From contig JADGIZ010000060.1 in NCBI GenBank assembly GCA_027604665.1, positions 1-32,660 of the forward strand: a DNA stretch of 32,660 nucleotides, read 5' to 3'. Shown in pieces: positions 1 to 32,660 of the stretch. A program made the translations under genes and the position numbers. The DNA comes from Polyrhizophydium stewartii (lineage: Eukaryota; Chytridiomycota; Chytridiomycetes; Rhizophydiales). The notes beneath the pieces are model-generated. The model ran no database searches. It was given only the letters and a program-made list of their open reading frames with translations, and was not told the DNA's origin. Each line of letters starts with the position of its first letter. Position 1 is the stretch's first letter.

Positions 1-2852
1 CGCCCTGGCGAGTCACACGCGCGCCGCCCCGCACTGGCGTGTCAGCACAGCGCACACCGCATCTGGCGTCGTGCGCAGGCAGGCGCGATGCATCTGGTGA
101 GGCACCTTTTTGGGCTTCTGGTTGAAGCGCTTGATTCCCTCGAGCATCAGCTGCTTGCGGTTCTTGAGGTTCTGGAACGCCGCAGGGTCGTCAACAGCGC
201 TGGCTCTGGAAGGGTTTGCGTCGTCGCTGGCAAGAAGACGAAGCCCCTCCGAATCTGCTTTGTGGACTGTATCGTTGTCGTCGTCCCCAGGCTTTCGTTC
301 GGTCTCATCTGCTCCGGCTTGTGACTGCTTCTTTGCGCGCGATTGGCACCACTGCATGAGTGGCCGCAGGATTCCACTGCAAAGAAGCTCCAAGCCGCGT
401 CGCTTAATCTCTCTTGTGTCGCCCGTAGTCGAATAGAGGTCGCGAACCTGGTCTCGAGACAGCGCCAACAGATTGCTTGTTGTCAGCGCCGGCGCCGAGC
501 CAGGCGTGACACTGACATACGACGATGAGAGCACTGGCGTCGATGGCATGGCCACAGACGGATCGCTCCGCTGAGAGGTGATTTTGGATAGTGCTGCAAT
601 GAGCCGCTCCCAGATGTTCTCCTTGGCGCTTGCCTCGACATCGCAGTCGTAGTTGAGGTAGATCTCGACGAGCATGCGGCCACCATCGAGCGCATTTTCG
701 CCAAAGATACGCTGCAGGCATGCGAGCAAAAGAAAACGTTGATACCACGGGATACTCTTTTTCGAGTCCAGGATTGGGATCACGATCTCGGTGAAGAAAA
801 CCGACACCTCGCGCTAAGCGCGTATCAGCATCCCATAGGCACATGTGGACTGTGTTGAGACATGACCTGCTTAGGCACACCTTCAGCTGGTTGCGAAAGT
901 GCAGGAGCAGCTTGCCAAATATCTCCATCGACACTTCGAAAACGGGCGGGATAACGCTGGTGGCATTGCGGCTGAGTGAAACAATCAGGAACTCCTTGGC
1001 GGCCTCCATAAACGTAATTGCCTGGCCCTCGGGATGTCCGCTTTTCGGGCTGTTGAGGGCGACAGAAGACGCCGCGAACACATATGTGTGCGACGAGAGG
1101 ACGGCGCTAATCAGGTGCAGAGAAAGCAGTTTCGACCGCACGGGCTGGGAGCGTAGATCCATGGTCCTGTAGTCGGTTTGTAATCGTTGTGGTCGGTGAG
1201 CGGCCACATAGCAGCCGAGGTGCGCGATGCGCATCTTAGCCGCAAACTCACCCTTCCGGCGACGGAATGGGCTTCATGCTCAGGACACAGAGCGTCCGCA
1301 AGACCTTGAAGGCGTCCTTGAGCGCCTGCATTGCAGTGGACGAGAGAGCAGCTGCTTCTGATTGCATCAGTTTGCGTTTTGCACCCGGCGTTCCACTGGC
1401 AGTCGGGATTAGCCTGGTGTGCATGTAGAATAGCATCGCGCGCGGACTAACCTGGAGTTCGCAGCGCCTGTCCTGGACTCTGCTGAAGAAGTTGGCACGG
1501 ATTTTGGTTCCTTCGAGCTTTCCAGATCTGCAGAGAGCCATTCTTGTAAATCAGCAGAGAGTTTCGTCAATTGGTCGGTTTAAATGGCTCACCAATATCG
1601 CAAGAGTCAGCGGTCGTCGATATTGGTCCAACGGATGTTGCCGAGGAGGCAAGGCTCGATTCTGGCGCCATGGCGGAGGTGGCGTTCAAAGAACATGCGG
1701 GAGAATCTGACTGGGAGCTGATGACAATATCAGGTGTGCTCGACGGCGCTTGGCTTCCGAGCTCATGGGTCGCGCTGCCCAATGTTGATGCCTTGGATAC
1801 TGCCACCGTCGAGATATTTGCCGCCGATGCGCTGCCGCCCGCCTGCGGCGACTTTGGGATACGGCCAAAGACGTTCTGCACCATTTGAGTGACTGTTCCT
1901 TGGGCAACAATCTGGACGTCGTGCGATTTTGAGAGCAAGAAAATGTTGTACGTTGTGCGGATGGCCTTGAGCAAGATTGCGCCGTGGAGTGCGTATGCCG
2001 GGTCAGTGGTGGTGAGAGCTGCCTGGAGAGCCTTGATGATCTGAAGCTGGACTCGCTCATCGGTACTTTCTCCCGTAAACCCGTTGCAGATGGTCTCTAT
2101 AACAAAAGAAATCATGCCTTGGGTGCCTTCGTTGTCCCCGTCATCGTCCTGCTGGTCCTCTTGTACATGAGTGTGGCGCCGTGGCTCGGCGGCGGCGCCG
2201 GTTTCCATATCTTTGGCGGTGGGATTGTAGCCGGCAGCGACCTTTCCCCAGTAGTTGTACGAAAAGAGCTTCCCGAGGCAGTCGATCGCGATCGTCGTTA
2301 ACTCTGGGCTGCCCGACTCGCATGCGATCTGGAAGGGCTTGAAGATGGTGATTGGCGTCTCGTACGAGCTTGCCTCGAGAGCGGCTGCCGGAAGCACGGT
2401 TGTCGCGTGCCGCAAAGAAGCGCAATCCGCGCAGCAGCATCGGCGAGGTGGCGTGGATATGTCAGCGGCGATCTCGCTGCGGATTGCTGCCGACTGTCCG
2501 ACTGCAGGCCGCCAGGGCCGGCGGCATGCCCTGCGCAAGACGCAGCAGCCGCCGGCACCGCACGGGCGACGCCTTCGGTGACCAAGTGCGCGGCCGCGCA
2601 ATGCGGAGTACGGATCGCACCTGTCGCGGCCCGGATCGCGGCCTTGAGGGGCTCGCGACGGGCAGCCTCCTTGGAGTCGTGCAGCATGCCGAGAGCCATG
2701 CGTATGAAAAAGTCGCTCGAGCCAGCATCGCTCATGGAGACTGCAGCAGCCTGCTGCTTGGCGCTTGCGCCGCCGGCAGAGTTCTTCATGACCGTTGTCA
2801 GGCGCGTGAGCAGGTTGCCGCCCGACGGGTCGGCGCCTGGCGTCTTTCCCAT
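1..2852 (-). CDS. SEC7: BIG-type ARF guanine-nucleotide exchange factor SEC7, N-terminal part (runs off left end)
   Basis: Large exchange factor that loads GTP on ARF GTPases at the trans-Golgi. The visible part has the N-terminal DCB region (IKALQAAL, then AIRTTYNIFLLSK) and the HUS region with the HUS box NYDCD near 640. Inferred exons are 2852-2621, 2501-1593, 1542-1452, 1395-1252, 1166-881, 807-106 and 4-1; the frames join and give 788 codons. The 2620-2502 intron is the least certain, because the cysteine-rich stretch after it is unconserved. The last complete exon ends in FNQKPKK. The acceptor at 5 then supplies the glycine that normally opens the catalytic Sec7 domain, so the window ends exactly where catalysis would begin. 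The start ATG at 2852 opens the frame leading into DCB. The PRE1 stop is 140 bp upstream. A separate 3' SEC7 part lies at the other end of the window. Confidence 0.88.
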
Positions 2853-2992
2853 GGCTGCTGTTTGGCTCGGGCGAGGGCAGGATCTGGCAAAATCTCGTTT
2901 TGGCCTGCTTGCCCGCACGTCGCAGCAGAGCAGCGGCGGCGTCTGACGGACACGGAAACTGCTTTGCGCACCGAAACAGCAGCCCGTCTTCA

Positions 2993-30224: not shown

Positions 30225-30249
30225 TCGGGAAAAGTGCAGGCACGCTGGT

Positions 30250-32660
30250 TTATCTCGCCGTCTTCTCGGCCGTCGTCGTCGTCTCGGCCGCCTGGGCGGC
30301 GGCGGCGGCTTGCGAGGCAGGCGCCTGCGTCGGCGCATCGCCATGATCCGCATCATGTGCGGGCTGCAGCGAGCGCGCCGCCGCCGCTGCTGCATCCAGC
30401 CGCGCTTGCACGCCAAAGACACCAGCGGCGCGCATCAAGATCGAGCGCACCACCATGCGAGTCTCGGCGGCAAGCTCAAACTGGATCAGCCCCGCAACAG
30501 GCAAGTACAGCGCCCAGATGTGCTTGCCAAACTGCGCGTCGTCAAACTGGCCGACCCCTGTCACAATAATGTGCACGACCGGCCGCCATGCGCCAAGGTT
30601 GCGCTTGCGGCTCTCGGGGTCGAGGGTATTGTAGTACGTCAGGATCTCGAGGGCCAACCTTTGCGGTCCATGTCAGCCGCGACGCCGGGACACCACCAGC
30701 TGCGCGAGCGCGCATCCGAGGACCTACGGGATCAGGCGACGCTCGACCTCGTCCTGGCTTGAGACACGCTTCTCGGCGTGATCGCAATACATGCGCAGCA
30801 GGATCAGCAGATAGCCCGACACGCTCGCCGTCTCTTGCTTGAGCAGGTTTGGCGGCTGCCGCATGAAGCCCATCTGAAAAAGCGCCGTGCGCAGCTCCAC
30901 GTCGGCGTTGAACTTTTGCGCAAACTGGTAGCTCTGGAACAGGCAGTCCACGAGTGCCAGCACATGCCGCGATGGAAGCGAGTTGTACACGACTGCGCTG
31001 TTTTCCGAGGACAGCAGCTCCTGCAGCGTCTGGATCACCTGCAAGTGCAGCACGCACTTGACAATGATGCGCTGGAAGTCGCTCTTTTGCGGTCGCGGCG
31101 CAAACGGCTTGCCTGTTGGGGCCAGCCGCCGCGCACCGGGCACTGAATCCGCATGTTGCTCGACTGCGCTCTCGCCGCGGTTTGCGGCGCTGGGCGTGAA
31201 TCCAAGCGCACTCGGTCGTCCCTCGCTCGCCTCGTCCGCCGGCTCCGCCTGAGAGGCTCGGCTGCCGCCATCGACGCTCTCCCGTGCTGCGACATCTGCG
31301 CCGGTCTCGGCATGCACCTCAAAGAACAGCTCGTCAGGCGACGTGGTCTCAAACAGGTACACAAGCCGATCGCAGATCTTGTCCCAGAGCGGCTCGGTCA
31401 GCTTGTCGACGTTGGCCTCGATCAGCTGCTGCAGGCACGTCGAGCCGATCTTGGAAAGGCTCTCGTTCTCCTGTGTCATGCACACCATTAGCAGATCGAG
31501 CACGTCGTCCATCAAAAACAGGAGCGCATCAAAGTGGCTCGAGAACAGCTCGACAAACTTGCGCAGAGCCTGGATCAGCGTCGTCGAGAGCCACACCGAC
31601 ATCTCTTCCTTGTTGCCAAACTTGCTATAGTCCTTGCGCGTGAGCCGCAGGTCGTCAAAGATCGGGAAGAGCACGCCCTTGTGGATGAGCGACCAAAAGT
31701 CCTGCGTAAACGTGCTGCCGTGCTCGTCGAGCGCATCAAACAGGAAGTTGAGCGCGCGTGTGCGGACCTCGAGATCGCACGTCATCACAATCTCATAGAG
31801 CCCAAAGAGGACCGGGAACCAGAATCGAATCGATGGATTCTCGTCGAGCGCCTCCTGCTCTGTCGGGAGCTGCATCTCGGGCTTGGTTGCGATGGGCACC
31901 GACAGCACCTGCATGGCTTGCTCGACGACATCGCCAATATTCTCGCCGTGCGCGTACGACAGATGCGACGGTGACAGAGTGTCGAGCCGCTTCTCGATGA
32001 ACGCAATCGCGTGGTGCAGAAGCTCGACCGACTGCAAGCTGATTGAGGCGGAGTGTCAGCCAAACTGGATGCGAAAACGAGCCGTGTCGCTGCGCACACA
32101 CCAAGTCTTGGGAAACCGCTGGTTCTTGCAAAACTCGACCAGGCAGTTGACAAAGTCGCCAAAGTGGTGGCTACGCAGCACATGGTCAAAGTGCGTTTTG
32201 AAAATGGTGCGCACAATCTCGAACGCAAGCACCACGATCGGCTCTGCCAGCAAGGATTCGTCAGCATCAACAAACTGCTCCATCGCGCGGCCAACCAGTC
32301 AAACCCACCATACTCTTCGCGTGCAGCCTTTCCAAATGTGCTAAACATGGCCTTCCAGCCACTGCGAAGCTGCTCCGCGCGCGCCTTGACCATCTGCTGC
32401 AAGCAAGCCAGCACCATATCCTTGATCTTGACGTCGGGGTTGTTAACCAGGATAATCTCAAACGGCCGCAGAAAGTCCTTTTGGAACTTGAAGTTGGGCA
32501 GCTCGACAATGTCCAGAAACTTCATAGCCAGCTGCCGGAGTTTGTCGAGCGCAAAGTACACCACGTTGGTGTTGGACAGACAGCCGACTTGGTTGAAGTG
32601 CTGCCCGAGGATCGCCCAGATGTTGGACCACTCGACACGGATGCGCTTCATGTTGTAGTA
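30250..32660 (-). CDS. SEC7: BIG-type ARF guanine-nucleotide exchange factor SEC7, C-terminal part (runs off right end)
   Basis: C-terminal HDS region of a large ARF exchange factor. Exons are 32660-32309, 32243-32102, 32038-30728 and 30658-30250, coding 737 residues, open at the right end. The first visible residues, [19 protein letters not shown], correspond to the segment after HDS1 in BIG/Sec7 proteins. Then come [55 protein letters not shown], the later HDS segments and the C-terminal block [20 protein letters not shown], followed by an Ala/Thr-rich tail. The catalytic Sec7 domain and HDS1 are outside the window. The segment has no overlap with the N-terminal half at 1-2852, so the two could be halves of one gene or of two genes. 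Confidence 0.93.

Follow-up and report, generated by a model that had tools for sequence, protein, structure and literature searches.

Why does a single contig carry seemingly complementary parts of a SEC7 gene at its two ends? The question is raised by contig JADGIZ010000060.1 (C60) of the chytrid Polyrhizophydium stewartii, the whole of which (32,660 bp) is the window analyzed here: the 5' half of a BIG-type SEC7 gene runs off its left end and a 3' half enters from its right end, both on the minus strand. P. stewartii belongs to Rhizophydiales and is described as a saprophyte that is closer to Batrachochytrium dendrobatidis than Homolaphlyctis polyrhiza is (PMC12204190). The BIG/Sec7 subfamily comprises large guanine nucleotide exchange factors for Arf GTPases (Arf-GEFs) with a HUS box of the form N(Y/F)DC(D/N), of which fission yeast has two, SC71 and SC72 (PMC553965). 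We conclude, with a probability of about 0.9, that C60 is the stretch of DNA separating A and B, two old SEC7/BIG paralogues in direct orientation whose Sec7 catalytic core has been repeatedly copied by interlocus gene conversion, at times together with the HDS1 region, and that its ends are breaks at points where A and B are identical. The assembly was probably cut there because A and B overwrite each other's catalytic core.

The left-end gene (SEC7-A, positions 1 to 2852, minus strand) is counted from an ATG at 2852 that was chosen by us, with approximate exon joins, and its exons match the Pfam DCB (PF16213) and HUS (PF12783) families and contain the HUS box NYDCD. The right-end gene (SEC7-B, positions 30250 to 32660, minus strand, with a stop codon at 30250-30252) encodes HDS regions and the C-terminal domain, its exons matching Sec7-like HDS (PF09324) and BIG2_C (PF20252). 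A preliminary description, made from the letters of the window, had recognized DCB-HUS and the later HDS regions on these strands, and the Pfam matches bear it out; it had also placed the left edge at the catalytic domain's first glycine, but the last exon ends with FNQKPKK and is followed by 106 bp of apparent intron (positions 1 to 106, minus strand), with a GT donor adjoining base 107. The partial intron is common to a second contig, C431.

The missing halves lie on C431 and on a third contig, C204. C431 encodes P. stewartii protein P0121, which has DCB and HUS matches and aligns to the contig by tblastn with one mismatch in each of two blocks, and its left half, like that of C60, has the HUS box NYDCD. 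P0040, likewise a P. stewartii protein, aligns to C204 by tblastn in four blocks, two of them without mismatches and the longest with 13 in 690 columns (it spans introns). C204 contains a Pfam Sec7 domain, and FRLPGEAQKIDR, in the portion of gene A on this contig, includes FRLPGE, the catalytic glutamate loop of the domain. The domain layout is that of BIG/Sec7 proteins, with DCB and HUS upstream of Sec7 and HDS and the BIG C-terminal domain downstream.

Orthology assigns the four halves to two genes. Batrachochytrium has a pair of BIG-type SEC7 proteins, A (P0002 in B. dendrobatidis and P0001 in B. salamandrivorans) and B (P0011 and P0034, respectively). The left half of C60 is 59% identical to B. 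dendrobatidis A and 35% to B, and C204 is 67% and 46% identical to them; the left half of C431 is 34% identical to A and 45% to B, and the right half of C60 is 44% and 65% identical to them. Separate N-terminal and C-terminal trees place the left half of C60 and C204 with Batrachochytrium A, and the left half of C431 and the right half of C60 with Batrachochytrium B; the C-terminal tree sets those of Globomyces B and Gorgonomyces B apart, each with a long branch. Gene A thus consists of the left half of C60 plus C204, and gene B of the right half of C60 plus C431, which implies that the contigs follow one another as C204-C60-C431, that A and B share a strand, and that their equivalent points are an estimated 34 kb or slightly more apart (one C60 plus the missing core). 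The two ends of C60 are therefore not complementary parts of one gene, as the preliminary description had it; the left end carries the 5' half of SEC7-A, whereas the 3' half at the right end is that of SEC7-B.

The edges of C60 show where the two genes become alike. A DNA search with window positions 1 to 1500 matches C431:1-192 at 98%, and one with positions 31000 to 32660 matches C204:17851-18127 at 84%; each end of C60 overlaps its partner contig by exactly 77 bp and nothing longer, at positions 1 to 77 with C431:1-77 (SEC7-B) and at positions 32584 to 32660, within a coding stretch, with C204:18051-18127 (SEC7-A). We read both overlaps as de Bruijn graph breaks with k=77, the assembler word length, such that both ends of C60 would be points where two sequences become identical. 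The near-identical left stretch (positions 1 to 192, minus strand, 189/192 with C431:1-192) includes the 106 bp of intron with one difference, of three in the whole stretch. From the left edge inward, successive windows give A/B identities of 95/96 and 94/96 and then of 33/87, 49/88, 60/96, and 31/60, an abrupt boundary that includes noncoding sites. Conservation of the protein domain alone would not account for this edge, where the intron stays alike and the adjoining exon sequence drops to about half identity. At the right edge, identity between C60 and C204 goes from 77/77 to 56/77, 64/77, 49/77, and 33/77.

Three further contig starts were searched for such matches. The first 77 bp of contig C2 are the exact reverse complement of its last 77 bp, an overlap of the same k length, and C2 may be flanked by two inverted copies of some sequence; no 77-bp match to the starts of C127 and C190 was found in the contig DNA search. 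At 96% identity, C127:1-200 resembles C117:20222-20421, which may represent alleles kept apart or a recent duplication, and the P. stewartii assembly may accordingly contain allelic or duplicated segments.

The Sec7 domain itself can be compared in Batrachochytrium, where both copies are present as proteins, that of B. salamandrivorans B lacking its N-terminal part. The paralogous Sec7 domains agree at 167 of 169 aligned positions within B. dendrobatidis and at 168 of 169 within B. salamandrivorans, whereas orthologues in the two species differ by about 10% (152/169 for A, 151/169 for B). Fisher tests of within-species paralogues against between-species orthologues give p = 5e-4 (B. dendrobatidis pair versus A) and p = 5e-5 (B. 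salamandrivorans pair versus B). The flanks are only 35% and 42% identical between A and B in B. dendrobatidis and 36% and 41% in B. salamandrivorans, and the linker after Sec7 is 39% and 34% identical in the two species. Uninterrupted A/B identity covers the Sec7 domain, running from KPKK to about VMKDE for 176 residues in B. dendrobatidis and 175 in B. salamandrivorans; B. dendrobatidis has a second identical run, of 78 residues, in HDS1.

Phylogenies of the flanks and of the Sec7 domain group these proteins differently. In the flank tree (25 chytrid sequences) the eight Rhizophydiales A sequences form one clade (100/100) and the five B sequences another (100/98). The Sec7 tree (24 sequences, without the P. 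stewartii B copy) pairs A with B inside B. dendrobatidis (99/98), B. salamandrivorans (99/95), and Gorgonomyces haynaldii (98/93), with bootstrap values that are not fully settled. Within the tract, then, the sequences of these three species sort with their own paralogue, and outside it with their orthologues; Globomyces does not follow this pattern. Approximately unbiased (AU) tests on the Sec7 domain reject trees in which orthologues are held together, with p = 0.0011 for A of B. dendrobatidis plus A of B. salamandrivorans and p = 0.00017 for three B sequences; the groups are the clades of the flank tree, although the tests were run after the Sec7 tree had been inspected.

Twelve within-species pairs were compared across chytrids, a species being counted if both genes were present among the 120 of 3637 and 120 of 933 proteins listed, and the measurement of identical runs covers 11 of the pairs, since the contigs lack the B domain of P. 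stewartii. Order was assigned by taxonomy look-up for four Rhizophydiales species and six outside taxa, and by genus for B. salamandrivorans and Chytriomyces sp. MP71. Five Rhizophydiales species in this set have both genes, and three of these (B. dendrobatidis, B. salamandrivorans, and Gorgonomyces) show full or partial homogenization of the A and B Sec7 domains; in P. stewartii it is visible at both edges of the missing B core. The longest identical run in the Sec7 window is 165 residues in each Batrachochytrium species, 66 in Gorgonomyces, and 12 in Globomyces. Seven pairs from outside Rhizophydiales have longest runs of 12 to 29 and Sec7 identities of 70-86%; the highest two (85% and 86%) include partial proteins with C-terminal flanks that are also high (84% and 70%), and these may not be true within-genome paralogues. 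Homogenization of the A and B Sec7 domains is thus recurrent but not constant. The G. haynaldii SEC7-A protein P0047 lacks the start of the Sec7 domain that is present in its paralogue P0054, just before the run identical in both, a gap that may reflect an error in the gene model due to the repeat.

Several observations weigh against gene conversion between A and B as the account of C60, one being that the P. stewartii B core was not recovered. The contig set examined contains 690 contigs (12,858,570 bp), and short contigs are absent from it, the shortest being 10,013 bp. For the C204 core, the matches listed in the contig DNA are confined to C204, C127, and C60. For a 477-residue core searched against proteins, the 120 matches listed of 1554 reach 61% identity at most, such that no B-core fragment of P. 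stewartii is among them. Identity of the B and A cores in P. stewartii is consequently seen only at the two edges, and a B core near-identical to that of A is what we infer. C204 ends inside the Sec7 domain, with no 77-bp partner found among the contigs, and it runs through the right-hand break where C60 stops, which leaves part of the graph between the ends without an explanation; a chimeric origin of C60 is conceivable in principle. The Batrachochytrium comparison uses protein sequences only, the A and B HDS1 regions of B. salamandrivorans are identical at just 63/77 positions, the HDS1 tree resolves little, and recent HDS1 conversion is clear only in B. dendrobatidis. The pattern is also not universal, the Sec7 domains of Globomyces pollinis-pini A and B being identical at 107/169 positions (63%).

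An artefact, whether assembler collapse, chimeric joins, or annotation that reuses one core for two genes, could draw on some of the same facts, as the contigs break at these points, those under about 10 kb are missing, and the B core was not found. It is nevertheless very improbable: the three differences in 192 bp indicate two distinct copies of the stretch, and the same pattern recurs in the sister species B. dendrobatidis and B. salamandrivorans, whose versions of the domain differ, in protein clusters of 4 to 8 members.

Slightly less probable still is that C60 is an extrachromosomal circle or one unit of a tandem array of about 34 kb, its ends belonging to a single SEC7 gene. Gene order and strand fit such a join, and near-identical direct-repeat cores would yield such a circle at low frequency by pop-out recombination. 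However, orthology ties the two ends to different Batrachochytrium genes, the 77-bp overlaps of the ends are with C431 and C204 and not with each other (no repeat of at least 40 bp links them), and one partner contig was found for each. Of the four explanations put forward in the preliminary description, an assembly cut through a repeat and a pair of neighboring SEC7 paralogues hold together as parts of one account; the tandem unit and the circle are unsupported, since each outer half, on C204 or C431, completes by orthology the end of C60 that it overlaps or with which it has a break in common, and not the opposite end. What the preliminary description named as its refutation, a pair of full-length and clearly distinct SEC7 genes flanking the window, is in substance what is found, with neither gene full length in the contigs.

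No additional near-identical copy is among the DNA matches listed for the two ends of C60, and other candidate partners were set aside. The third BIG-like gene, at C127:2596-7687 (minus strand), is a distant one that has the whole Sec7 domain and is 27-37% identical to B. dendrobatidis A and B over the longer matches; its DNA matches to the C204 core are at 65-81%, it was not listed in the searches with the C60 ends, and a more sensitive comparison with the right end gives 71% over 151 bp. C190 has a Sec7 domain with matches of only 69 to 149 residues, C243 has no match at E 1e-10, and neither was listed with the C60 ends.

Very strong purifying selection without gene conversion, the last explanation for identical A and B domains, gains something from Sec7 being the most conserved domain (on average 44% identical, where the other domains reach 21-28%; PMC553965) and from A and B presumably catalyzing the same kind of reaction, yet it is as improbable as the circle, given that A and B are older than the species split in the flank tree and still closer in Sec7 within species than orthologues are between them, that the shared stretch in P. 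stewartii includes an intron, and that the Globomyces copies have drifted apart.

Between the two SEC7 copies, C60 carries a proteasome subunit gene (positions 2993 to 3734, minus strand, in two exon pieces at 2993-3298 and 3357-3734; PF00227) that adjoins SEC7-A, a P-type ATPase gene (7263 to 9095, minus strand; PF00122), and a ubiquitin-conjugating enzyme gene (10730 to 11212, minus strand; PF00179). The interval also contains a 708-residue open frame (12235 to 14361, minus strand) with no Pfam match at E 0.001.

These features suggest how conversion between A and B might be maintained. The two genes predate the species split, and their targeting and regulatory parts diverged, with the catalytic domain staying similar enough to recombine and each conversion resetting its identity; on this account DCB-HUS and HDS2-4 are by now too diverged to recombine and evolve separately. 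Homologous recombination is the likely agent, and selection for one common exchange activity may help to keep the tracts. The closeness of A and B would favor contact, as in P. stewartii some 34 kb separate the directly oriented copies, and the Gorgonomyces proteins are both on a contig of 433,144 bp, probably the same one. A crossover in place of a conversion would delete the interval with the proteasome subunit, P-type ATPase, and ubiquitin-conjugating enzyme genes, and crossovers should therefore be selected against. We tentatively propose, at somewhat less than even odds, that the Rhizophydiales BIG Arf-GEF pair has kept, by recurrent conversion around Sec7, a catalytic engine in common that is mounted on two targeting chassis, each evolving on its own. 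The tracts would be self-sustaining, the domain remaining above the identity needed for recombination and the flanks below it, and the essential-looking genes of the interval would weed out crossovers and leave conversions.

Gene conversion between old duplicates is already known, as between duplicated yeast histone genes (PMC4700949). Unlike the histones, the SEC7 pair encodes Arf-GEFs of about 1,900 residues in which conversion is centered on one catalytic domain, at times with HDS1, between flanks that are 35-45% identical, and its confinement to the catalytic domain is unusually clean in two species. The pair resembles the BIG/Sec7 subfamily as outlined in PMC553965 in its DCB, HUS, Sec7, and HDS architecture and in the presence of two BIG-type members in one fungus; it differs in the homogenization between members, of which there is no mention in the accessible part of that article. 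Titles and abstract openings in the open-licence literature yielded no description of SEC7 gene conversion, and a word search of the available text of PMC12204190 and PMC11797018 found neither SEC7 nor gene conversion.

The C60 ends suggest that exact k-length overlaps between contig ends may map recent gene conversion in short-read assemblies. If Arf-GEF trees used no more than the Sec7 domain, this single old duplication would be mistaken for several recent duplications. The pair, with catalytic cores that are near-identical and regulatory ends that differ, also constitutes a natural experiment on what DCB-HUS and HDS alone contribute.

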